64,000 nt of DNA. Origin: Sulfitobacter sp. EhC04 (lineage in GTDB: Bacteria > Pseudomonadota > Alphaproteobacteria > Rhodobacterales > Rhodobacteraceae). Shown in pieces: positions 7,685-37,077 of this stretch (position 1 is the stretch's first letter; each line of letters begins with the position of its first letter). Location of the stretch: the NCBI RefSeq assembly GCF_001650875.1, contig NZ_LXYI01000009.1, positions 62,001 through 126,000 of the forward strand, read 5' to 3'. Below the pieces are notes generated by a model. It saw only the letters and a list, made by a program, of their open reading frames with translations. It did no database searches and had not been told where the DNA came from. A program made the position numbers and the translations under genes.

Positions 7685-9181
7685 TCAGCCCTGCACCGTG
7701 ACCGGTGCCGGTGTGGCCGTCACCTGCCCGCGCCGCGTGATATATCGCGCCAGCACCTGCGCCAATGGCGCGCCGTCGCGCCCCTGTAACAATGCGACCG
7801 TGACCTCCTCCACCGGGTCCAGCCGCCGCCCCGTCGCGCGCAGGGTCAGGTCTGAAATGCGCGTGCCTTCCGCCGCCCCCGGCGCGATGGCAAAGGACAG
7901 TCCCGCCGCCCGCATCATCCTTGTGTCCTGCCGCGCGAAAGGGTCTTCGGCAAAGGCGGCATGTGCCGCCGCTTCCAGCAGGACCGCAATGGCAGCCCCC
8001 GTCAGGCCGCGTTTGGCCACATGCCGGTCGCCGGACACCTGCGCCAGATGGCGCGACAGAATCGGCTGTCCGGGCAAAATCGTTTCCGCCGCTCTCAAAG
8101 GCGGGACCAGCGCCACATCGGCCCCCGTCTCCGCCAGCATCGCATCCCCGATCAGCGCCTTCCAGGTGCCGCTGAAACTGTCGCGATGATGCAGCATGTC
8201 CGCCGCGGTTCCGACCGGCGTGTCGTCCCCCGCGCCCACCACCTGTAACGCTGCGGCATCCGGCCTGATCAACCGGCTGAAAATCGGGATCAGCCCCTGG
8301 CGCAGGTCGGCCATCTGCCCATTCTTCACCGCAATATCGACGCGGGTCACAAAGCGGCCCTGCGCCCCGGAGGCGACGATATGCGTGCCGCCCACCACCT
8401 CGGGCTCGGGCAAGGCATGGCCGGAGCGCCCTGAAAAGATCACATCGACCCCCTCCAGCCCCGAGGCCAGGGCGCGGTCCGCCTCGAACCCCATTTGCGA
8501 CAGCAAGACAACAACCTGCGCCCCGGCGGCACGGCGCGCGGCAATGGTCTGTTGCAGCGCCGCCAACGAAAATCCGGTATCGGGCCGGTGCGGATCGGCC
8601 AGGCCGATCACGGCAACCTGTGCCCCGCCCGGTGTGAAAGTCGCATGATCCGGCTGATCTGCGGCATTGGCGGCCAGCGCGCCGGGGGATGGCTGCGGCA
8701 CCGCCCGGTCAAAGGTTTCCGCTTCCGGTTTCAGCAGATGCCCCGCCAGCGCTGTGCCGCTGCCGCCCCCGTCCAGAACGATGGTGCCGGGGCGCGCGCT
8801 GCGGATCGCGCCGATCACCGTGGCCATCTGCGCCAGCCCGCCCATCGGCCCATAGACCGCGCCAAGTGCATCAAAACCTTCGGCGGTCATCGCGGCATCC
8901 ATCGGGGTGCGCCCGCCAATCCCATATCGGATGCGCATCGCCTCCCCGGTCAGGTTCGGCACCCGGTCAGGGCCATAGCGCACCGCCGCCGGGCGCAGAT
9001 GATGCGGCAGGACCATCCCGCGCAGATCGCTGAAATGCAGCAGGGTGATGTCTCCCAACGGGTAGAAATCGAGCAGCGCCGCCTGATCATAGCGGTCCTG
9101 TGCCACGGCCCGCCGCGCGGACAGCGCAAACCCGACACCGGCAGCAATCGTCTGCCCCAGGACCTCGCGACGCGTCGGCAT
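7685..9181 (-). CDS. SoxB-like 5'-nucleotidase/metallophosphatase-fold protein, metal site degenerate
   Basis: The 498-residue exported protein begins with a twin-arginine signal (TRREVLGQTIAAGVGFALSARRAVAQ). From residue 35 it aligns by eye with SoxB, the thiosulfate-oxidising dimanganese hydrolase: PLGDITLLHFSDLRG, VYGPMGGLAQMATVIGAIR, VVVLLSQMGFEADRALASGLEGVDVI, and IPIFSRLI are in SoxB order. The metal ligands are missing. SoxB's D-x-H is DLR here, GGD is GGG, the LLSHNG histidine is Gln, and the GGHTHD segment is SGRSGH. It is therefore probably a non-catalytic relative. No other sox genes are present. It is divergent from phoX across 199 bp. Confidence 0.75.
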   Translation of the reverse strand: MPTRREVLGQTIAAGVGFALSARRAVAQDRYDQAALLDFYPLGDITLLHFSDLRGMVLPHHLRPAAVRYGPDRVPNLTGEAMRIRYGIGGRTPMDAAMTAEGFDALGAVYGPMGGLAQMATVIGAIRSARPGTIVLDGGGSGTALAGHLLKPEAETFDRAVPQPSPGALAANAADQPDHATFTPGGAQVAVIGLADPHRPDTGFSLAALQQTIAARRAAGAQVVVLLSQMGFEADRALASGLEGVDVIFSGRSGHALPEPEVVGGTHIVASGAQGRFVTRVDIAVKNGQMADLRQGLIPIFSRLIRPDAAALQVVGAGDDTPVGTAADMLHHRDSFSGTWKALIGDAMLAETGADVALVPPLRAAETILPGQPILSRHLAQVSGDRHVAKRGLTGAAIAVLLEAAAHAAFAEDPFARQDTRMMRAAGLSFAIAPGAAEGTRISDLTLRATGRRLDPVEEVTVALLQGRDGAPLAQVLARYITRRGQVTATPAPVTVQG

Positions 9182-27835: not shown

Positions 27836-29827
27836 TCAGGCTGCTGTTGGTTCAATCTGTCTTGCGCGCCATGCCAGAATTATCGGCAGGGCGCAAAGGG
27901 CGGCACCGATGATGAACGACAGGCTGTAGCCCCAGTTCAGCAGATCGGTGTGCGGTTTGGCAATCAGGACACCGCCAAAAAACAACAGCACCCGCAGCGG
28001 CAGTTCGAACCGCCCCCGCACCGGGCCGACCAGGCTGATGTAGCCCTGAAGCGCCGAGGCAATCATCGCCACGCCGATCAGCGCGCAGGACAATGCGACC
28101 GCGACCTCCCATGCCGGGGCCTGCCCGATCAGCGCAGGGTTCAGCACAAAGAAGAAAGGCGCAATATAGATCACCCCACCCAGGCGCATCGCCTCGAACC
28201 CGGTGGCGATGGGGTTGGACCCGGCCATGGTTGAGGCCGCAAATGCCCCCAGTGCGACGGGCGGCGTGATATAGCTGACCATGCCCCAGTAAAGGATGAA
28301 GAGGTGCACCGCGAGCCGGTTCAGCCCACCGGCCTCAAGCGCGGGGGCCAGCACCACCGCCAGAAAGATGTAACAGGCGGTCACCGTCATCCCCATGCCG
28401 AAGATAAATGCGGTCAGCGCGCCCATCAGCAGCAGCACAAGCGTGTTGTCCCCGGCAAGGAAGACCAGTTCATTCACCAGCGTGCCCGCCAGCCCGGTGG
28501 CCGAAAACGAACCGACAATCAGCCCGACCCCCAGCAGAATGGCAGTCAGCTCTGCCAGCCCCATGCCAACGCCCACGATCATATTGCCCAGCCGCTGCCC
28601 GTTCAGGCGGAAGCGGGCGCGAAACTGGTTCACGATCAGCAGCAGGACAGTTGCATAGAAAGGCGCGGAGGATTCCTGGCGCAACCCGATCATCATGTAG
28701 AGCAGCAGCGCGAAGACAAAGATATAGGGCCAGCCCTCGATCATGACTTCCTTGAGCCTTGGCAGATCCGGCTTGGGCAGGCCGCGCAACCCGCGCCGGG
28801 CCGAATAGGCGTCGATCTGGGCGAAAAGGCTCCAGTAATACAGGATGCTGGGGATTGCCGCCGCCAGCGCGATCTCCACATAGGGGCGCGACAGGAAGGA
28901 TGCCATGACAAAGGCGGTGGCCCCCATGATTGGCGGCATCAACACCCCGCCGGTAGAGGCGCAGGCCTCTGTCGCGGCGGCGGTCTTGGCGGAGAAGCCG
29001 GTCTTGCGCATCGCCGGGATCGACACCGCCCCCGTGGTCAGCACATTGGAAATGACAGAGCCCGACATGGACCCCATGAAACCGCTGGCAAAGATCGACA
29101 CCTTGGCAGCGCCGCCCCGGTAGCCGCCGACCAGCCCCAGCGCCAGATCGTTGAAGAACTGTCCGCCGCCGGTGCGTTGCAACACCGCCCCGAACAGGAT
29201 GAAGCCGATGACAACGCCACCAAAGGCCTTCATTGGAATGCCGAATGAGCTTTCGGCGGAATAGATGTGATAGGGTACGGTCTGCATGAACGTGCTCTGG
29301 AATCCCGAGAACGGGTCAGGCACATGGCCTGCAAACGTGGGATAAAAGGCAAAGAGCGTCACGATCAGGAACAGGATCAGCCCGCCTGCGCGGCGCGTCG
29401 CTTCAAGGATCAGGAAGAAGAAGGCGACCGAGACATATTGCGCCGTCTCGGGTGCCGCGTATTCCCAGCCCTGAGACAGGTTCGCCTGTGCGGTCTGGGT
29501 CAGATACCCGGTGCAGGCCAGCGAGGCCGCGAACAACGCCCAGTCCAGCAAGCTGGGCCTGCCGCCCTTGCCGCCGCGCATCTGGAAAATCAGGAATGTC
29601 AGGGCCAGAAATATCCCGCCCAAAAGGTAAAGATACCGCCCCTCGATCAGCACCAGCCCGAAAAGCTGTGTGTTGAACAACTGGTTGACCACCAGCACCA
29701 GCGACAGAAGTGTCCCGGTGATGACGGCCCAGCGTGCGGGGCCGCTGATCCGCTCTGCCGGGGTTTCCCCGTCGATTGCGACTTCTTCGACCGCTTTTTC
29801 GGCTGCGTTCTTGTTCTGCTCGGTCAT
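27836..29827 (-). CDS. TRAP transporter fused permease subunit (DctQM type, TAXI-associated)
   Basis: The 663-residue membrane protein combines the small and large TRAP permeases. After a soluble N-terminus, about four membrane segments (DctQ-like; WAVITGTLLSLVLVVNQLF, YLYLLGGIFLALTFLIF) lead into a DctM-like region of many more, including FMGSMSGSVISNVLTTGAVSIPAMRK and ACASTGGVLMPPIMGATAFVMA. Fused permeases of this size normally pair with TAXI solute-binding proteins, and one is encoded directly upstream. The ATG at 29827 is used; an upstream GTG in frame is also possible. Confidence 0.93.
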   Translation of the reverse strand: MTEQNKNAAEKAVEEVAIDGETPAERISGPARWAVITGTLLSLVLVVNQLFNTQLFGLVLIEGRYLYLLGGIFLALTFLIFQMRGGKGGRPSLLDWALFAASLACTGYLTQTAQANLSQGWEYAAPETAQYVSVAFFFLILEATRRAGGLILFLIVTLFAFYPTFAGHVPDPFSGFQSTFMQTVPYHIYSAESSFGIPMKAFGGVVIGFILFGAVLQRTGGGQFFNDLALGLVGGYRGGAAKVSIFASGFMGSMSGSVISNVLTTGAVSIPAMRKTGFSAKTAAATEACASTGGVLMPPIMGATAFVMASFLSRPYVEIALAAAIPSILYYWSLFAQIDAYSARRGLRGLPKPDLPRLKEVMIEGWPYIFVFALLLYMMIGLRQESSAPFYATVLLLIVNQFRARFRLNGQRLGNMIVGVGMGLAELTAILLGVGLIVGSFSATGLAGTLVNELVFLAGDNTLVLLLMGALTAFIFGMGMTVTACYIFLAVVLAPALEAGGLNRLAVHLFILYWGMVSYITPPVALGAFAASTMAGSNPIATGFEAMRLGGVIYIAPFFFVLNPALIGQAPAWEVAVALSCALIGVAMIASALQGYISLVGPVRGRFELPLRVLLFFGGVLIAKPHTDLLNWGYSLSFIIGAALCALPIILAWRARQIEPTAA

Positions 29828-29862
29828 GGGCTCGCTCACGTATTGGGGGACGGCACAGGGCA

Positions 29863-29890
29863 AACCGGCCGGCGAAAACGTCGGCCGGTT
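29863..29890 (-). promoter_or_regulatory. Intercistronic hairpin between TRAP binding protein and permease genes
   Basis: AACCGGCCG (29863-29871) and CGGCCGGTT (29882-29890) pair, and the stem extends inward by three pairs (one G-U) to close an AAAA loop, giving 12 bp. There is no T run after it on the minus strand, so it is more likely an mRNA-stabilising or attenuating hairpin that raises expression of the binding protein over the permease than a full terminator. Confidence 0.6.
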
Positions 29891-29909
29891 CGGTCACATG
29901 TCGCGAAGA

Positions 29910-31046
29910 TCAGAAGACGACTTCGAAACCGCCGGCTTCCAGCGCCTTGCGGCGCGCGTCGGCCCATGCCGCTTCCCAGTCAGCGGGGTTGGCGGCCTTG
30001 GTTTCTTCCCAGGCTTTTGCCAGGGCTTCCTGACGGGCAATCAGGTTGTCGTTATGCGCCTGTGCCGCATCGGTCCAGACACCCGCTTCGGTGTAATAGC
30101 GGATCGCACCTTCGTGGTAGGGCACCACCCATTCCATGTCCTGCTTGTCCATGGCCCAGCCGCCAATGCCCGGTGCCTTGCCGTCATACTGGGGGAAGAG
30201 TTCGACCATCGCCTTGGTCATGTTGTACACGAGATCCGTATCGGTGGCGTCAATCGCCGTCAGAACGGGATAGGCATAGCCCGCCCCCTGATACCCGTCG
30301 GTGCCGTCGATGGTGGCACCCACCACGGCCTTGTTCGGCGTGAAGAACGGCGCGATGGCCGTCATCCGCGCCAGACCTTCTGCATTGTCGGGGTCGACGG
30401 GCGGCCAGAACAACCCGCGCGGACCCGCTTCGGCCTCATAGGCCTTGCCGGAGTTGGTGGAGGCAAAGGCCGCATCGACCTGGCCTTCGATCAGCCCGGT
30501 CCAGCTGGCACCGAAACCGCCGAAATCGACCCGCTCCACGTCATCCCATGTCAGACCGCCATAGGCGAGATAGGCCTCGGTGTTCACGTTCAGCGCGGGC
30601 GCGCCGACGATATAGGCCACGCGCTTGCCCTTGAGGTCGGAAAATTCCTTGATGTCGAGGTCATTTGCCACGCCAACCGCAAGGTTGATCGCGCCGCCAT
30701 TGTTGGCCATCAGCACGCGGATGGGCTGCGGGCCCCAGTTTTCCGCGCCGAAGTCAAACACACCTTCCTGCGCCATGAAGCTGCCGCCAACGCCGGTCGC
30801 AGAGAATTCCACCCGGCCCTGCCGCAGTGGCTCTGTCCGCGACACGTCGTTCTTGCCCGGCAGCACGCGCAGGTTCACACCCGCCGCATCCTGAAGCGCC
30901 GCACCGATGGCGACAGCCTGGTTATAGCCAGCCGAGCCTGTGTCATAGGCGGTCCAGCTCATCTGCTTGGGCAGATCAAACTCCTGCGCGGTCGCCATGG
31001 TGGCCGTCAGGCCCAGCGCCGCGATCGTTGACGTAATGTAGTTCAT
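29910..31046 (-). CDS. TAXI family TRAP transporter solute-binding protein
   Basis: The 378-residue periplasmic protein begins with a signal peptide (MNYITSTIAALGLTATMATAQ) and has TAXI-family features: the YDTGSAGYNQAVAIGAALQD segment, SDLKGKRVAYIVGAPALNVN and WTGLIEGQVDAAFASTNSG. It captures a solute for the fused permease encoded next. It is first in a four-gene operon with the permease, an acyl-CoA ligase and a TPP enzyme, which suggests that the imported compound is a carboxylic acid. Confidence 0.93.
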   Translation of the reverse strand: MNYITSTIAALGLTATMATAQEFDLPKQMSWTAYDTGSAGYNQAVAIGAALQDAAGVNLRVLPGKNDVSRTEPLRQGRVEFSATGVGGSFMAQEGVFDFGAENWGPQPIRVLMANNGGAINLAVGVANDLDIKEFSDLKGKRVAYIVGAPALNVNTEAYLAYGGLTWDDVERVDFGGFGASWTGLIEGQVDAAFASTNSGKAYEAEAGPRGLFWPPVDPDNAEGLARMTAIAPFFTPNKAVVGATIDGTDGYQGAGYAYPVLTAIDATDTDLVYNMTKAMVELFPQYDGKAPGIGGWAMDKQDMEWVVPYHEGAIRYYTEAGVWTDAAQAHNDNLIARQEALAKAWEETKAANPADWEAAWADARRKALEAGGFEVVF

Positions 31047-31283: not shown

Positions 31284-32678
31284 ATGACCGCCAGCCTGAA
31301 AGACCTGCCTCAGATCGAGGCGCTGCTGTCACAGCCGAGCATTGCGGACCTGTCGCAGGCCTATAGCCGGGCAGAAACTGCGGCGGCGTTACGTGACGTC
31401 ATCGGCGGATTGCGCGCAGCCCTGCAAAGCGCGACACCGCCCGCCGCCCTGCCCGACTTTGCTGGTGGGGATTTTGCCGCCCTGGTGGCGCTGCAGATAA
31501 CGGCGGCGCGCGCGCCGTCGCTCCGGTCGGTGATCAATGCAACCGGCGTCATCATCCACACCAACCTGGGCCGCGCCCGTATGGCCCCACAGGCGATTGC
31601 GGCAATGACTGGGGCGGGGGCAGACGCGACAAACCTTGAGCTTGACCTTGAAACCGGCAAGCGCGGGTCGCGTCATGCCCATGTGGAGGGGCTGATCCGC
31701 GATCTGACCGGGGCCGAGGCCGCCGTGGTGGTCAACAATTGTGCCGCTGCGGTGCTGCTGAGCCTGATGGCCACCGCAAGCGGGCGCAGTGTGGTCGCCT
31801 CGCGCGGGGAATTGGTCGAGATCGGCGGGTCCTTCCGCCTGCCTGACGTGATTGCGCAAAGCGGTGCACGGCTGCGCGAGGTGGGCACGACGAACAAGAC
31901 GCGGGTGGCGGATTACGCCGATGCCATCGACGACACCACCGCCGTGCTGCTGAAAAGCCATACCAGCAACTTTCGGATCGTCGGTTTCACCGCAGCACCC
32001 GACAGGCAGGCGCTTGCCCGGTTGGCCAGCGAACGCAGGGTGATCCTGATGGAAGACCTCGGCAGTGGCGTGCTGGTCGACCTGACCCGCTTCGGGCTGA
32101 GCGATGAACCCGTGGTCTCCGATGTGCTGAAGGCCGGTGTCGATCTGGTCATGTTCTCGGGCGACAAGCTGCTGGGGGGGCCGCAGGCAGGCATCATCGC
32201 CGGAAGGCGCGAGATCGTGGCAGAGTTAAAGGCGCATCCGTTGATGCGCGCGCTGCGCATCGACAAACTGTCGCTGGCCGCCCTTGAGGCGACCTTGCGG
32301 CTTTACCGCGCGCCGCATGATCCATTGCAGGAGGTGCCGGTGCTGCGGATGCTGTCGGAGCCGCTGGAAGATGTGGCCGGGCGCGCCGCCGCGCTGGCGG
32401 ACAGGCTGGCCATGGTCGGGGTTCGCGATATCAAGACAGAGGCCACATCCGCCCGCGTCGGCGGCGGCACCTCGCCAGAGCAGGACCTGCCCAGCCGGGC
32501 CCTGTCCATCCGCCTCGACGGAATGTCGGCAGAGGCGCTGGCTGCGGCACTGCGCCGTGGCCCGCCCCCGGTGATCGGCCGGATCGCGCAGGATCGTGTA
32601 CTGCTCGACATGCGCAGCGTGCAGGACGATGAACTGCCCCTGATCGCGGAGGCCTTTGCCGCGATCCTGCGCCGATGA
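31284..32678 (+). CDS. selA: L-seryl-tRNA(Sec) selenium transferase
   Basis: The 464-residue PLP enzyme converts seryl-tRNA(Sec) to selenocysteinyl-tRNA(Sec) using selenophosphate. Family segments include SVINATGVIIHTNLGRARM, VNNCAAAVLLSLMAT, LREVGTTNKTRVADY and the PLP lysine in MFSGDKLLGGPQAGII. The start at 31284 has a GAGGGG ribosome-binding site. Its stop overlaps the selB start (ATGA). With selB and the tRNA-Sec gene downstream it forms most of the selenocysteine-insertion machinery; selD is not in the window. Confidence 0.97.
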   Translation: MTASLKDLPQIEALLSQPSIADLSQAYSRAETAAALRDVIGGLRAALQSATPPAALPDFAGGDFAALVALQITAARAPSLRSVINATGVIIHTNLGRARMAPQAIAAMTGAGADATNLELDLETGKRGSRHAHVEGLIRDLTGAEAAVVVNNCAAAVLLSLMATASGRSVVASRGELVEIGGSFRLPDVIAQSGARLREVGTTNKTRVADYADAIDDTTAVLLKSHTSNFRIVGFTAAPDRQALARLASERRVILMEDLGSGVLVDLTRFGLSDEPVVSDVLKAGVDLVMFSGDKLLGGPQAGIIAGRREIVAELKAHPLMRALRIDKLSLAALEATLRLYRAPHDPLQEVPVLRMLSEPLEDVAGRAAALADRLAMVGVRDIKTEATSARVGGGTSPEQDLPSRALSIRLDGMSAEALAAALRRGPPPVIGRIAQDRVLLDMRSVQDDELPLIAEAFAAILRR

Positions 32679-34585
32679 CGGTCTGCTGCCTTGTGGTGAT
32701 CGGCCATGTGGACCATGGCAAGACCGCTCTGGTGCGGCGGCTGACCGGGATCGACACCGACCGGCTGGCCGAGGAGAAAGCACGCGGCCTGTCCATTGTC
32801 GCAGGCTATGCCCATCGCACCTATGCCGGCGGCACCGTCGATTTTGTCGATGCGCCGGGCCACAGCGATTTCGTGCAGGCGATGATTTCGGCAAGTTCTG
32901 GCGCGCAGGCCGCGCTGGTGGTGATCTCTGCCGTTGATGGCATCGCGCCCCAGACCCGCGAGCACCTTGAGATTGCTGCTCTGCTTGGCCTTACCGAGGC
33001 GGTCATCGCGGTGACCAAAACCGACCTGCTGCCCACCGGGGCGCTGGACGAAGTGCTGACGGCCATCCGCGACGATCTTGCGGGCAGCGCATTTGCCGAT
33101 GCGCCGATGATCCCCTGTTCCTCGGTCACAGGCAGCGGCGTGCAGGCGCTGGAGGGGGCGATTGAAGTCCTGCTGCGCCGGGTGCAGGCGGGGCGTGGTC
33201 CGGCCTTCCCCTATCTGCCGGTTGACCGCGCCTTTACCCTGCCGGGGCGCGGCACCATCGTCACCGGGACGCTGCTGGGGCGCGCGCTGAGGGTCGGGGC
33301 GGACATGCTGCTGCAACCGGGCGCGCTGCCGGTGACCATCCGGGGGCTGCACAGCCGGGACGCGGCGCAAGAGACGATCATCGCGGGCGGACGCACAGCC
33401 GCAAATCTGCGCGGCGTTGCCGTCGAAGACGTGCCGCGTGGCGCGGTCCTGTGTGGCGCGGCGGCGGGTGACGCATCGACTTGCATCGACGTGCATCTGA
33501 CGCTGCTGGCGGCAGCGGGGCTGAAACACATGCAGGAGGTTCGTGTGCATATCGGCACCGCACATGTCGTGGCGCAGATACGGCTCTTTGGCGCGGGCAG
33601 GTTGGCGGCGGGGGAGAACGGCCTTGCCCAGTTGCGGTTCCGGCATCCGGTCATGGCCCATGCCGGGCAACGCGCGATCCTGCGCCGGTTGTCGCCGCCA
33701 TCGACACTGGGCGGCGCGGTTGTGCTGGACCCGCAAGCCCCGCCGTCGCGGGCTGGTGACAAGGCGCGGGTGCGGGTGTTGCGCGCCGCTGTGGCGCAAG
33801 ACCTTGCCGAGGTTGCCCTTGCCCTGATCGCCGCCAATGGCGGTGCCGTCCCCCTGCAAGACGCGGCAAGGCTTGCGCGGCGGGATCTGGCGACCCTGCG
33901 CGCGGCGCCTGGCCCCGAGGTCATTGAGATAGCCGCAGACAGGGTGACCTCTGCCGAGGCCATCGCAGATTGCCGGGCGGCGCTGTTGCAGGTCATCCGC
34001 GACCATCACAGGCGCTATCCGGCCAGATCGGCGGTGCCGCTCTCGGCGCTTTGCCCGCGCGACACCGCCCCCGACCTGCTGCACCATGTCCGGCAGGCGC
34101 TGATCGAGGACGGCACCTGCCGGCAATCCGAGCGCGGCATGGCGCTGGCACGACATGATCCAATGACAGCACTGCCGCGCGCGCATCTGGAGCGGCTGGC
34201 ACAGATCGAGGCCGCGGTCCGCGATGGCGGGCTGGCACCGCCTGCGCTGTCGCAGGTGTTGGGCGGACCTCAGGATCAGGACCTGCTGGGCCTGCTGATC
34301 GACCAGGGCGCGTTGATCGCCCTGCCCAATATCGCGCTGAAACAGACCGTGGTGCTGCACCGCGAGACCCTGCGCACGGCGGCGGGGGCGCTGCGCGCAG
34401 CCTTCCCGCCCCCTGCCGCCTTTACCACCGGCGAAGCCCGCGCGGCGCTGGACACAAGTCGGCGTATCATCGTCCCGCTGCTGGAGCATTTCGATGCCCT
34501 CGGGGTCACCACGCGCGGCGGCGACCGGCGTCGGATGTCGGATGTTCCGGGCGGATTGCGCGACCCTGGCCATGGCGCGGGTTGA
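32675..34585 (+). CDS. selB: Selenocysteine-specific translation elongation factor
   Basis: The 636-residue GTPase brings Sec-tRNA to UGA codons by binding the SECIS hairpin with its C-terminus. The G domain has GHVDHGKTALVRRLTG, DTDRLAEEKARGLSI (the SelB version of the switch region), DAPGHSDFVQAM and TKTDLLP. Translation-factor beta-barrels follow (residues about 170-350), then winged-helix repeats that end near FDALGVTTRGGDRRRM. It overlaps selA by 4 bp and is followed by a hairpin, a 99-bp palindromic repeat and selC. Confidence 0.97.
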   Translation: MTVCCLVVIGHVDHGKTALVRRLTGIDTDRLAEEKARGLSIVAGYAHRTYAGGTVDFVDAPGHSDFVQAMISASSGAQAALVVISAVDGIAPQTREHLEIAALLGLTEAVIAVTKTDLLPTGALDEVLTAIRDDLAGSAFADAPMIPCSSVTGSGVQALEGAIEVLLRRVQAGRGPAFPYLPVDRAFTLPGRGTIVTGTLLGRALRVGADMLLQPGALPVTIRGLHSRDAAQETIIAGGRTAANLRGVAVEDVPRGAVLCGAAAGDASTCIDVHLTLLAAAGLKHMQEVRVHIGTAHVVAQIRLFGAGRLAAGENGLAQLRFRHPVMAHAGQRAILRRLSPPSTLGGAVVLDPQAPPSRAGDKARVRVLRAAVAQDLAEVALALIAANGGAVPLQDAARLARRDLATLRAAPGPEVIEIAADRVTSAEAIADCRAALLQVIRDHHRRYPARSAVPLSALCPRDTAPDLLHHVRQALIEDGTCRQSERGMALARHDPMTALPRAHLERLAQIEAAVRDGGLAPPALSQVLGGPQDQDLLGLLIDQGALIALPNIALKQTVVLHRETLRTAAGALRAAFPPPAAFTTGEARAALDTSRRIIVPLLEHFDALGVTTRGGDRRRMSDVPGGLRDPGHGAG

Positions 34586-34776: not shown

Positions 34777-34871
34777 GGAGGTGACTGGAGTCTGGTGGCT
34801 TCCCTGGTCTTCAAAACCATGGACGCGTCGCAACGGCGTGTGGTGGGTTCGATTCCCATCCACCTCCGCCA
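34777..34871 (+). tRNA. selC: tRNA-Sec (anticodon TCA)
   Basis: A 95-nt tRNA with the hallmarks of selenocysteine tRNA: the UGA-reading anticodon TCA at 34811-34813 in the loop CTTCAAA, an acceptor stem GGAGGTG pairing with CACCTCC (an eighth position reads A-C), a long variable arm of about 20 nt, a T arm GTGGGTTCGATTCCCAT, and encoded GCCA at the end. It follows selA-selB and precedes the selenoprotein genes on the same strand. Confidence 0.95.
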
Positions 34872-34927: not shown

Positions 34928-36532
34928 ATGCACAATGAGACAGCGGATATTTCGCCGCCCGGATTCTCTCTGGCAGATCTGGCGGGCGCAACCCACAGCT
35001 TTCCCACCCGGCGCAGGGCGCTGGTCTGTTTCGTCAAGCAAGATTGCGAAACCTGCAATACGGCAGGCCCGGTGCTGGAGGCGTTTCACCGCGCGTTCGG
35101 GTCAGAGATGGATGTCCTGCTGGTGTCCCAGTCGGGTGACGCCAGCACGGTTTTCGCCCAGCGCCATGGGCTGAGGATGCCGGTGCTGGATGACCGCGCC
35201 TGCAAGACCGCCTTTGCCTGGGACATCGAAAGCGTGCCATCGGTGTTCCTGTGTGATGCGGACGGCACATGCATGACCCGTTTCGAAGGCTTCGTGCGCA
35301 GCGACTGGGAGGCGCTGGCCGCTGACCTGGCAGCCCAGACCGGCACACCAGCCGCACAGGTCGACTGGCAGGGCCTCCCCGCCTGGCGACCGGGATGTGG
35401 GTCAAAGCACCTGGACCCCGAGGTCTTTGACAAGCTGCGCGCCGAGGCGCAAGGCAGCCCGATCCGCGCGCGGCGCATCGAGATCGCCAGCAGCGACGAT
35501 GTGGCGGAGTTCATGTTCGACCAGGGATTCTCTGACGGGTTGCCGCTGGTGCCGCCCACGCCCGAGCGGGTGATGCGGATGCTGGCAGGCACCCACCGCG
35601 ACGCGCAGGACGTGGTGGCCACCGTGCCGCCAAACATGGGCGAGGCCACGGTGGAGAAGGTCGCGATCAACGCGGTGATGGCCGGGTGCAAACCCGAGTA
35701 TCTGCCCGTGGTCATCGCCGGGGTCGAGGCGGTCTGCACCGATGCCTTCAACATCCACGGCGTCACCGCGACCACGATGGGTGCGGCCCCGGTGATGGTT
35801 GTGAACGGCCCGATCCGCGACAGGATCGGCATGAACATGAAGCTGGGGGCGCTGGGGGCCGGCAACCGTGCCAATGCCACCATAGGCCGCGCGCTGCGGC
35901 TGGTGGTGCGCAATGTCGGCGGTGCCTCTACCGGGGGGGTCGAACGCTCCACCCTTGGCAATCCGATGAAATTCACCATGTGTTTCGCGGAATGGGAAGA
36001 ACGCGCGCCCTGGGAGCCGCTGCATGTGGAGCGGGGTTTCAACCGGGAGGATTCGGTGGTGACCGTCTTTGCCATGACCGGCGGGCCGGTCCATATCGTG
36101 GATCAGACCTCGCGCGGCCCGGAGCAGATCGCAGGCTCGCTGGGCATGGGGCTGGAGGGGGTGTTCCTGCCCAAGATGCACAACCTTCCTGTCGACGCGC
36201 TGCTGGTGGTCTGCCCGGAACATATCGACACGCTGATGCGGGACGGCCCATGGGACAAGGACCGCCTGCGCGACCGGATACAGCAGGTCACTTCGCGGCC
36301 CTTGCGGGAGATGCTGGCCGACGAAAGATCCGGTGCCGGTATCCTGCCCGACGCCGCCGCAGGGATGGATGCAGAGGCGCTTGACCGCCCGGCGCCGAAA
36401 TTTGCCGGCACCGATTTCATCCATATCGTGGTGGCCGGATCGGACGCGGGCAAATTCTCCTCCGCGTTCCACGGCTGGGCCACGGGGGAGGTCGGCTCGA
36501 TCTCGGTTTCCAGAAAGATTGATCCGGGTTAG
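34928..36532 (+). CDS. Thioredoxin-fold protein fused to a large conserved domain, partner of the UGSC selenoprotein
   Basis: The 534-residue protein starts with a thioredoxin/peroxiredoxin-like domain (about residues 8-135) with a C40-E-T-C43 redox motif in CFVKQDCETCNTAG and a cis-proline segment ESVPSVFLCD near 104. A second domain (about 180-534) contains DQGFSDGLPLVPPTPERV, AGCKPEYLPVVIAGVEAV, NIHGVTATTMGAAPVMVVNGP and a motif-poor C-terminus; I do not recognise a known activity. No signal peptide is visible. The start has a GGGAGG ribosome-binding site and lies 56 bp after tRNA-Sec. The UGSC selenoprotein gene begins 23 bp later, so the two proteins probably work together, perhaps in thiol or selenol redox chemistry. 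Confidence 0.72.
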   Translation: MHNETADISPPGFSLADLAGATHSFPTRRRALVCFVKQDCETCNTAGPVLEAFHRAFGSEMDVLLVSQSGDASTVFAQRHGLRMPVLDDRACKTAFAWDIESVPSVFLCDADGTCMTRFEGFVRSDWEALAADLAAQTGTPAAQVDWQGLPAWRPGCGSKHLDPEVFDKLRAEAQGSPIRARRIEIASSDDVAEFMFDQGFSDGLPLVPPTPERVMRMLAGTHRDAQDVVATVPPNMGEATVEKVAINAVMAGCKPEYLPVVIAGVEAVCTDAFNIHGVTATTMGAAPVMVVNGPIRDRIGMNMKLGALGAGNRANATIGRALRLVVRNVGGASTGGVERSTLGNPMKFTMCFAEWEERAPWEPLHVERGFNREDSVVTVFAMTGGPVHIVDQTSRGPEQIAGSLGMGLEGVFLPKMHNLPVDALLVVCPEHIDTLMRDGPWDKDRLRDRIQQVTSRPLREMLADERSGAGILPDAAAGMDAEALDRPAPKFAGTDFIHIVVAGSDAGKFSSAFHGWATGEVGSISVSRKIDPG

Positions 36533-36555
36533 GTTATGGACAGAGGAGAACGCCT

Positions 36556-37077
36556 ATGACGACAATTCTCGACCCCACGGACGAACGCACCCCGGTAGAG
36601 CGGCAGGTGGCCGAACGTCCGGGCAGCCTGTCGGGGGTGGTCGGCCTGCTGGACATCAGCAAGCCGCGCGGCAATGTGTTTCTGGATGCGCTCGAAGGTC
36701 TGCTGGCAGAGAAAGCCCCCGGGATCACCACCCGGCGCTATACCAAGCCGACCTTTGCTAAACCCTGCCCCGATGCGCTGCGCCATGAGATTCGCGGTGA
36801 CTGCAATTTTGTGATCGAGGCTTTGGCCGACTGAGGTTCCTGTACGACGTGCAGTATGCACGACAACGTCTGGTTTGAAATCCAGGGGATCCCGGCAGTC
36901 GCCATCGCATCGAGCGAATTTGGCCAGGCCGCAGAATCGCAGCGCCGCGCGTTGGGCATGAATGACGCGCGCTATGTGCTGGTGCCGCATCCGATTCAGG
37001 ATGCGACTGACGCTGAAATGCGCGCCAAGGCGGCGCAGGCGGCGGATGACATCATCGCCGCACTGACCGCAGGCTGA
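36556..37077 (+). CDS. UGSC-type selenoprotein with in-frame UGA (Sec93)
   Basis: Read through the TGA at 36832-36834, this is one 173-residue protein. Codons before and after the TGA are in the same frame and continue the same family: FVIEALAD, then U93-G-S-C96-T-T-C99, then SMHDNVWFEIQGIPAVAIAS. The U-G-S-C motif names the known UGSC (seleno)protein family, whose other members may have Cys at this site. A GAGGAG ribosome-binding site precedes the ATG. A SECIS-like hairpin follows the UGA, and selA, selB and selC lie directly upstream, so decoding as selenocysteine is strongly supported. The Sec and nearby cysteines suggest a redox or selenol-based activity; the reaction is unknown to me. 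Confidence 0.92.
36845..36865 (+). promoter_or_regulatory. Bacterial SECIS-like hairpin
   Basis: CGTGCA (36848-36853) pairs with TGCACG (36857-36862) around a GTA loop that begins with G, 20 nt after the UGA at 36832-36834. Position and a G at the top of a small loop match bacterial SECIS rules; a G46-C64 pair extends the lower stem past an A-A mismatch. Confidence 0.75.

Follow-up and report, generated by a model that had tools for sequence, protein, structure and literature searches.

This locus raises the question of whether the TGA codon at positions 36832-36834 separates two broken genes or is read as selenocysteine (Sec) within a single gene, and of what the encoded protein may do. The window, which is the whole stretch of 64,000 nucleotides from Sulfitobacter sp. 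EhC04 that was analysed, carries on its forward strand an open frame that starts with ATG at 36556, reaches this TGA as codon 93 and runs on in the same frame to the stop codon at 37075-37077. The start is preceded on the same strand by GAGGAG (36543-36548), which, judged from the sequence itself, resembles a ribosome-binding site. When the TGA is read through, the frame (36556-37077) encodes 173 residues with Sec at position 93, in the motif U-G-S-C-T-T-C. An earlier note, made from the letters of this DNA, had described one gene with these exact coordinates and had assigned it by this motif to the UGSC family, and both statements agreed with the family models. The read-through protein scored 170.7 bits against NF041046, 'UGSC family (seleno)protein' (cut-off 125), and 168.7 bits against PF24696 (cut-off 25), of which it is the one match in its own genome. 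The piece 5' of the TGA corresponds to positions 4-68 of the 147 of NF041046 and the piece 3' of it to positions 70-147; with PF24696 as well, each half matched the corresponding part of the model.

Relatives were collected by a contig scan with the half downstream of the TGA as query, which leaves the codon itself out. The scan returned at least 592 pattern matches, 567 of them encoding a relative, and the best 80 loci, which are close relatives, were kept. The codon before GSC was readable in 79 of these (the record of L059 begins past the motif), and it was TGA in all 79. The frame remained open beyond the TGA in every one of them, and homologues that end before the TGA or lose the downstream frame, which the note had named as evidence against its reading, were not found among these 79. 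We regard the read-through as settled, since the family models match both before and after the TGA and the codon is TGA in all readable relatives. The window gene is a further member of an already known selenoprotein family. The expectation that standard gene calling would break the gene held in part. On the Acidovorax sp. T1 plasmid p2-T1 (NZ_CP021650.1, 8574-11135; L145), which carries a TGA form, the frame past the TGA runs into the domain of the partner protein described below and then into a Y2 transposase domain, and the PLSDB gene table, stated to be incomplete, gives just a 'hypothetical protein' at 8640-8930. On the other hand, the NCBI family name already contains '(seleno)protein', so a pipeline that uses NF041046 need not split the gene.

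The note had also pointed to a possible SECIS element, a hairpin 14 nt past the UGA with a G in its 3-nt loop. This hairpin was seen at 36848-36862 on the forward strand, and consists of CGTGCA (36848-36853), the loop GTA (36854-36856) and TGCACG (36857-36862). Its 6-bp stem begins at base 14 past the UGA, and the loop is separated from the UGA by 19 bases. The bacterial SECIS model, as given in the excerpt used of a 2026 review (PMC13188914), has a loop of 3-9 nt with a G in the first two positions, a stem of 4-16 bp, a distance of 16-37 nt from the UGA and a folding energy of -7.5 kcal/mol or lower. The hairpin of the window fits this geometry, with G as the first loop base, 6 bp and 19 nt, and the folding energies of -11.5 kcal/mol for 36832-36885 and -9.3 kcal/mol for a 45-nt stretch are both below -7.5. 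As a stand-alone proof the hairpin was rejected, because in this one sequence it is within chance. The single-sequence fold was unremarkable (z-score 0.16), with 108 of 200 shuffles folding equally well. Synonymous re-draws of the sequence yielded some bSECIS-like hairpin of at least 6 bp in 6030 of 20000 cases, 383 of these with at least four G-C pairs, and in a second draw of 20000, 2063 had a 6-bp stem in exactly this position. The reading as SECIS is based on comparative evidence, namely frozen third codon positions, pairing and two-sided changes, and the single sequence contributes little proof.

The third positions were compared in 80 UGSC sequences, the window and 79 others. Thr98 is encoded by ACG in 77 and by ACA in 3, its third base being always G or A, and Cys99 is TGC and Ser100 AGT in all 80, while Ser95, Cys96 and Thr97 each use several codons in the same sequences. 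In the partner genes of 76 loci, Thr is mostly ACC and AGT makes up about 9% of the Ser codons. The log-probabilities of this codon constraint are uncalibrated because the loci are related. The 6-bp stem can be paired in all 46 distinct sequences among the 80, and it is present in the lowest-energy fold of 76 of the 80. The stem pair 18-30 occurs as G-C, G-U and A-U; RNAalifold counted 0 pairs changed on both sides in the 80 close sequences, G-U being taken as the commonest type. In the more distant L013 and L145, Trp at residue 99 and Phe or Val at 101 turn a C-G pair of the stem into G-C. As Trp99 occurs in Cys forms too, this amino-acid change need not be driven by the RNA.

Among 14 rows picked for diversity (13 distinct), every cell pairs and two of the six pairs show changes on both sides; the covariation score and the number of cells changed on both sides were each reached by 0 of 500 shuffles. 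The same two quantities were reached by 0 of 500 shuffles in the 46-sequence set also, and the shuffles ignore kinship. The number of pairs changed on both sides gave no support to the structure, being reached by 369 of 500 shuffles of the 46-sequence set and 106 of 500 of the 14-row set, and the number of further pair types was reached by 281 and 106 of 500, respectively. A lower stem (columns 9-15 with 36-42), in which 83.2% of the cells are paired overall, is not claimed as part of the SECIS. The ten Cys forms serve only partly as a hairpin-less contrast. The six bacterial ones are without a bSECIS-like hairpin of at least 6 bp, and all four haloarchaeal ones have such a hairpin, with varying geometry. 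Judged from these sequence comparisons, the predicted hairpin is a conserved SECIS.

The genes for Sec insertion lie on the forward strand of the same window. The selA gene (31284-32678) scored 572.2 bits against TIGR00474 (cut-off 267.9), and selB (32675-34585) scored 257.6 bits against TIGR00475 (cut-off 242.25); the piece of selB in the whole-genome scan, at 240.8 bits, fell just under that cut-off. The tRNA-Sec gene selC (34777-34871) was found by ARAGORN with the anticodon TCA, and Rfam RF01852 matched 34777-34867 with 75.2 bits (gathering 47). These genes had been placed immediately upstream of the UGSC gene. They are upstream, but a gene of 534 codons (34928-36532) stands between selC and UGSC. 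A genome without selD would have spoken against the earlier reading; selD was found elsewhere in this genome (G000:C8:92515-93405), at 282.1 bits (cut-off 125) and without an internal stop. This selD is contained in an open frame of 741 residues. Matches to selA were present in 34 of the 80 loci and to selB in 33, mostly in records with alphaproteobacterial names. A cluster of 13 of the 80 loci contains a gene that, in the two members checked (L015 and L020), combines Pyr_redox_2 with AIRS, as in an Ndh-SelD fusion. The selD of the window's own genome is likely a Pyr_redox-SelD fusion of this type. Homologues of SelD, FdhA (9 matches), AhpC-TSA (11) and CMD (6) in this genome had no internal TGA, and no match to GrdB or Rdx was found in it. 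The idea that UGSC is the sole selenoprotein of the genome is unsupported beyond these six families.

Taken together, the sequence data make it almost certain that 36556-37077 is a functional UGSC selenoprotein gene, whose UGA at 36832 would be decoded as Sec by means of the adjacent selA-selB-selC and the distant selD, under the direction of the hairpin at 36848-36862. A pseudogene, or a sequencing error at 36832, would account for the fact that the TGA interrupts the frame in this sequence. This explanation is refuted by the TGA in 79 of 79 readable relatives, and the frame kept on both sides, the covarying hairpin and the adjacent Sec machinery also speak against it, so that we attach practically no probability to it.

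The UGSC family is thinly spread among the relatives of this organism. It was found over cut-off in 5 of the 295 genomes of the same taxonomic family, its own genome included, and a sixth genome (G273) had a match below the cut-off. Distant members comprise the TGA forms L010, L013 and L145 and the Cys forms L005, L012, L141-L144 and L146-L149; in these ten Cys forms a Cys codon takes the place of the UGA. In an alignment of 19 rows reaching to haloarchaea and actinobacteria, position 93, which the note had suggested checking in homologues, is invariably Sec or Cys, and Gly94, Ser95, Asp103 and Lys64 are invariant as well. Cys96 and Cys99 are not universal, residue 96 being Ser in L005 and residue 99 being Trp in L013, L145 and others. 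The GOS survey of the ocean published in 2008 (PMC2398784) lists 255 Sec sequences of UGSC in its Table 2, and UGSC counts as one of the more common selenoprotein families in ocean surveys.

The gene between selC and UGSC, which the first reading missed, is a partner gene that belongs to the same unit as UGSC. It encodes 534 residues (34928-36532, forward strand), with a TlpA/ResA-like thioredoxin domain (AhpC-TSA, 30.1 bits; cut-off 26) followed by a C-terminal domain of no known family (35333-36529). The N-terminal domain has CETC at residues 40-43 and ResA as its best structural match, although the ResA score in NCBIfam, 25.9, is far under the cut-off of 170. The C-terminal part of about 400 residues of the window protein had no match in Pfam or NCBIfam at E values up to 10 and none in the PDB by sequence, and a deeper profile gave chance-like PDB matches only. 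In a fold search with the partner, the best 50 rows were all thioredoxin-type folds, so the fold of the C-terminal domain is unplaced.

The association of this partner with UGSC is close. The C-terminal domain was encoded on the same strand as UGSC in 77 of the 80 loci and the N-terminal domain in 76; in the three loci without the C-terminal domain (L031, L050 and L059), the record starts at UGSC. In 73 of the 76 pairs measured, the gap between the two genes lay between -4 and 109 bases; in the other three it was 199, 298 and 575 bases. In L026, a single frame covered just part of the partner. The thioredoxin motif DCxxC was present in 75 of 76 partner frames (70 by the first pattern and five more with the frame extended upstream), and was not found in L066. 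Within the taxonomic family, the C-terminal domain occurred in exactly the 5 of 295 genomes with UGSC over cut-off (hypergeometric 5.6e-11, kinship ignored). It also adjoined UGSC in all nine plasmid records with UGSC homologues. In the seven of these records in which the domain is annotated, its genes encode about 330-370 residues, a length that would seem to leave no room for a fused thioredoxin domain like that of the window protein. Near the Cys forms on plasmids, trxB is annotated in three of eight loci (L142, L143 and L144) and trxA in L143; one of the eight, L149, is without any annotation. In the haloarchaeal plasmid loci L146 and L148, one Cys-form UGSC is flanked by two paralogues of the partner domain in each, which suggests a two-chain partner. 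Two same-strand matches to the partner domain were also seen near the single TGA-form UGSC of L013.

The fold of UGSC was predicted with AlphaFold2 from 47 fairly close sequences (mean pLDDT 91.8). The model has five beta-alpha units, with Sec93 placed between the strand 85-91 and the helix 94-109. A search for a solved relative by sequence gave chance-like matches only. With Foldseek, the best matches of the model in the PDB were an azoreductase, a flavodiiron protein and lumazine synthase; TM-scores normalised by UGSC were 0.37-0.52 in the best 50 of 1779 matches, and these 50 also held other Rossmann-like folds such as TIR domains and small GTPases. No thioredoxin fold was present among them. 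The predicted fold of UGSC is flavodoxin-like and not thioredoxin-like.

UGSC was also compared with GrdB, the Sec subunit of glycine reductase, for which alphaproteobacterial GrdB-like proteins, mostly TGA forms themselves, were used. Such GrdB-like selenoproteins are common in the Alphaproteobacteria, where PF07355 matched in 30 of 289 genomes; 15 of the 20 GrdB-like loci (L094-L113) had the Sec-motif pattern, with TGA in all 15, L107 had Cys at the Sec site, and L097, L101, L103 and L105 gave no pattern match. When the diverse UGSC alignment was compared with GrdB by hhalign, Sec was aligned on Sec over 71 columns, with a score of 34.2, a P value of 0.00056 and a low probability of 30%; the first UGSC alignment gave P 0.0038 and 8.7%. 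The control scores reached at most 23.4 in 150 column shuffles and 23.6 in 150 shuffles that kept the Sec motif, and reversed profiles scored 14.2 and 15.9. In the reverse test, 2 of 16 GrdB-like proteins matched PF24696 (best E 0.0019). PF07355 had no match among 37 UGSC members at E values up to 10, in a search whose filters drop most matches above about 0.1, and the partner profile did not match GrdB (P 0.096). From these profile comparisons, which are weak when judged by usual standards, UGSC is probably a distant relative of the GrdB/PrdB Sec domain and not a member of it. The two share, besides the aligned Sec, a similar succession of elements behind it (helix, G-I-P strand, later loop) and the UxxC motif, and they differ in that UGSC lacks a PF07355 match and its partner a GrdB match. 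GrdB is best known from amino-acid fermenters. The UGSC hosts found here are different, being Sulfitobacter-type bacteria, gammaproteobacteria and haloarchaea.

The gene neighbourhoods give some indication of the role of the pair. In the window, genes of a TAXI-type TRAP transporter (DctM and NMT1-like, 27836-31046) lie before selA on the opposite strand, and SDR, SMP-30-type and P450 genes are also present. Matches to these neighbours across the 80 loci numbered 5 for TAXI, 20 for SDR (distant SDRs counted), 5 for SMP-30 and 1 for P450, and four further downstream genes of the window had matches in none of the 80. The eight annotated plasmid neighbourhoods, in a gene table that is incomplete, contain mostly transporters, CoA-transferases, dehydrogenases, lyases and hypothetical proteins, with SDRs and an amidohydrolase among them. 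In single relatives (L074 and L045), genes for an acyl-CoA dehydrogenase, a TauD-type dioxygenase, an RraA-like protein and an MFS transporter were seen nearby as well. The individual neighbours differ from locus to locus, and the neighbourhoods viewed speak for catabolism.

Two other functions have to be weighed against these data. UGSC could have a thioredoxin-like fold and act as a thiol:disulfide oxidoreductase or a peroxidase-like redox protein, with the partner as its redox client or reductant. Such a protein was supposed in the 2008 GOS study (PMC2398784), and the UxxC motif, the thioredoxin domain fused in the partner and the thioredoxin reductase near some Cys forms would suit it. However, the confident model has five beta-alpha units and flavodoxin-like matches, with no thioredoxin in its best 50 rows, the neighbourhoods look catabolic, and in the Cys homologue L005 Ser replaces the second Cys of UxxC. 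We consider such a role unlikely. The Sec of UGSC could instead serve another chemistry, such as the handling of metals, metalloids or organometals, in which UGSC would be a carrier and the partner a separate enzyme. Other Sec gene clusters have been tied to organometals, as with the SAO system in the portion used of the 2026 review (PMC13188914). In the incomplete table, no product name from the eight annotated plasmid neighbourhoods points to organometals or metalloids; a zinc transporter substrate-binding protein is listed in L145. This alternative seems quite improbable to us.

The explanation that we prefer, a UGSC selenoprotein that works with its partner as a GrdB-like, thioredoxin-fed reductase, is as a whole rather probable in our judgement. 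In this mechanism, the flavodoxin-like alpha/beta domain of UGSC would hold the selenol where the third strand ends and the next helix starts, and the C-terminal domain of the partner would complete the substrate site. The substrate, a small organic acid, may be attacked by the selenol to give a Se adduct or selenenyl-sulfide, which could be resolved first by the nearby Cys96 or Cys99 and then by the thioredoxin domain with CETC that is part of the partner. With the Cys forms, a separate thioredoxin and thioredoxin reductase may play that role. The role of the unit would be catabolic, not one of defence against oxidants. Whether UGSC and the partner form one such reductase, thioredoxin-fed and devoted to organic-acid catabolism, we judge to be evenly balanced. 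More tentatively, the pair could form, within the GrdB/PrdB selenol reductases, a third branch, ranging from proteobacteria to haloarchaea with a fused or neighbouring thioredoxin supply, which would reductively cleave an organic acid at a C-N or C-X bond and have a private selA-selB-selC in some alphaproteobacteria.

Known systems offer points of comparison. In glycine reductase, as outlined in the review excerpt (PMC13188914), the substrate is bound by GrdB, and thioredoxin serves as reductant at a later step; a tie to thioredoxin is common to GrdB/PrdB and UGSC. The GrdB-like proteins FarB/FarE have been linked to breakage of the C-F bond in fluoroacetate (PMC10838667). By their description in the excerpt of that paper, they resemble the arrangement proposed here, in which a small organic acid is the substrate of a GrdB-like Sec protein and a second protein, and they are a precedent only for a GrdB mechanism beyond amino acids. 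The UGSC family as described in NF041046, PF24696 and PMC2398784 agrees with the window protein over its full length, in the U-G-S-C motif and in the existence of Sec and Cys forms. The fusion of UGSC to a domain 'Unknown_1' in the ocean study (PMC2398784) may correspond to the partner domain, and the partner pairing and the flavodoxin-like fold are absent from the family account in the excerpt of that study. The portions used of PMC2398784, PMC9312934, PMC13188914, PMC5029168 and PMC10838667 do not link UGSC with GrdB or with the partner; such a link may be in print elsewhere.

The 2026 review, in the part used here, still counts UGSC among the selenoprotein families with largely uncharacterized functions (PMC13188914). 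The conserved linkage to the partner, the predicted fold, which is not that of thioredoxin, and the possible mechanistic relation to GrdB deserve to be followed up, and with them the function of UGSC becomes testable. If the link to GrdB is true, selenol-based reductive cleavage would extend past glycine and proline reductase.
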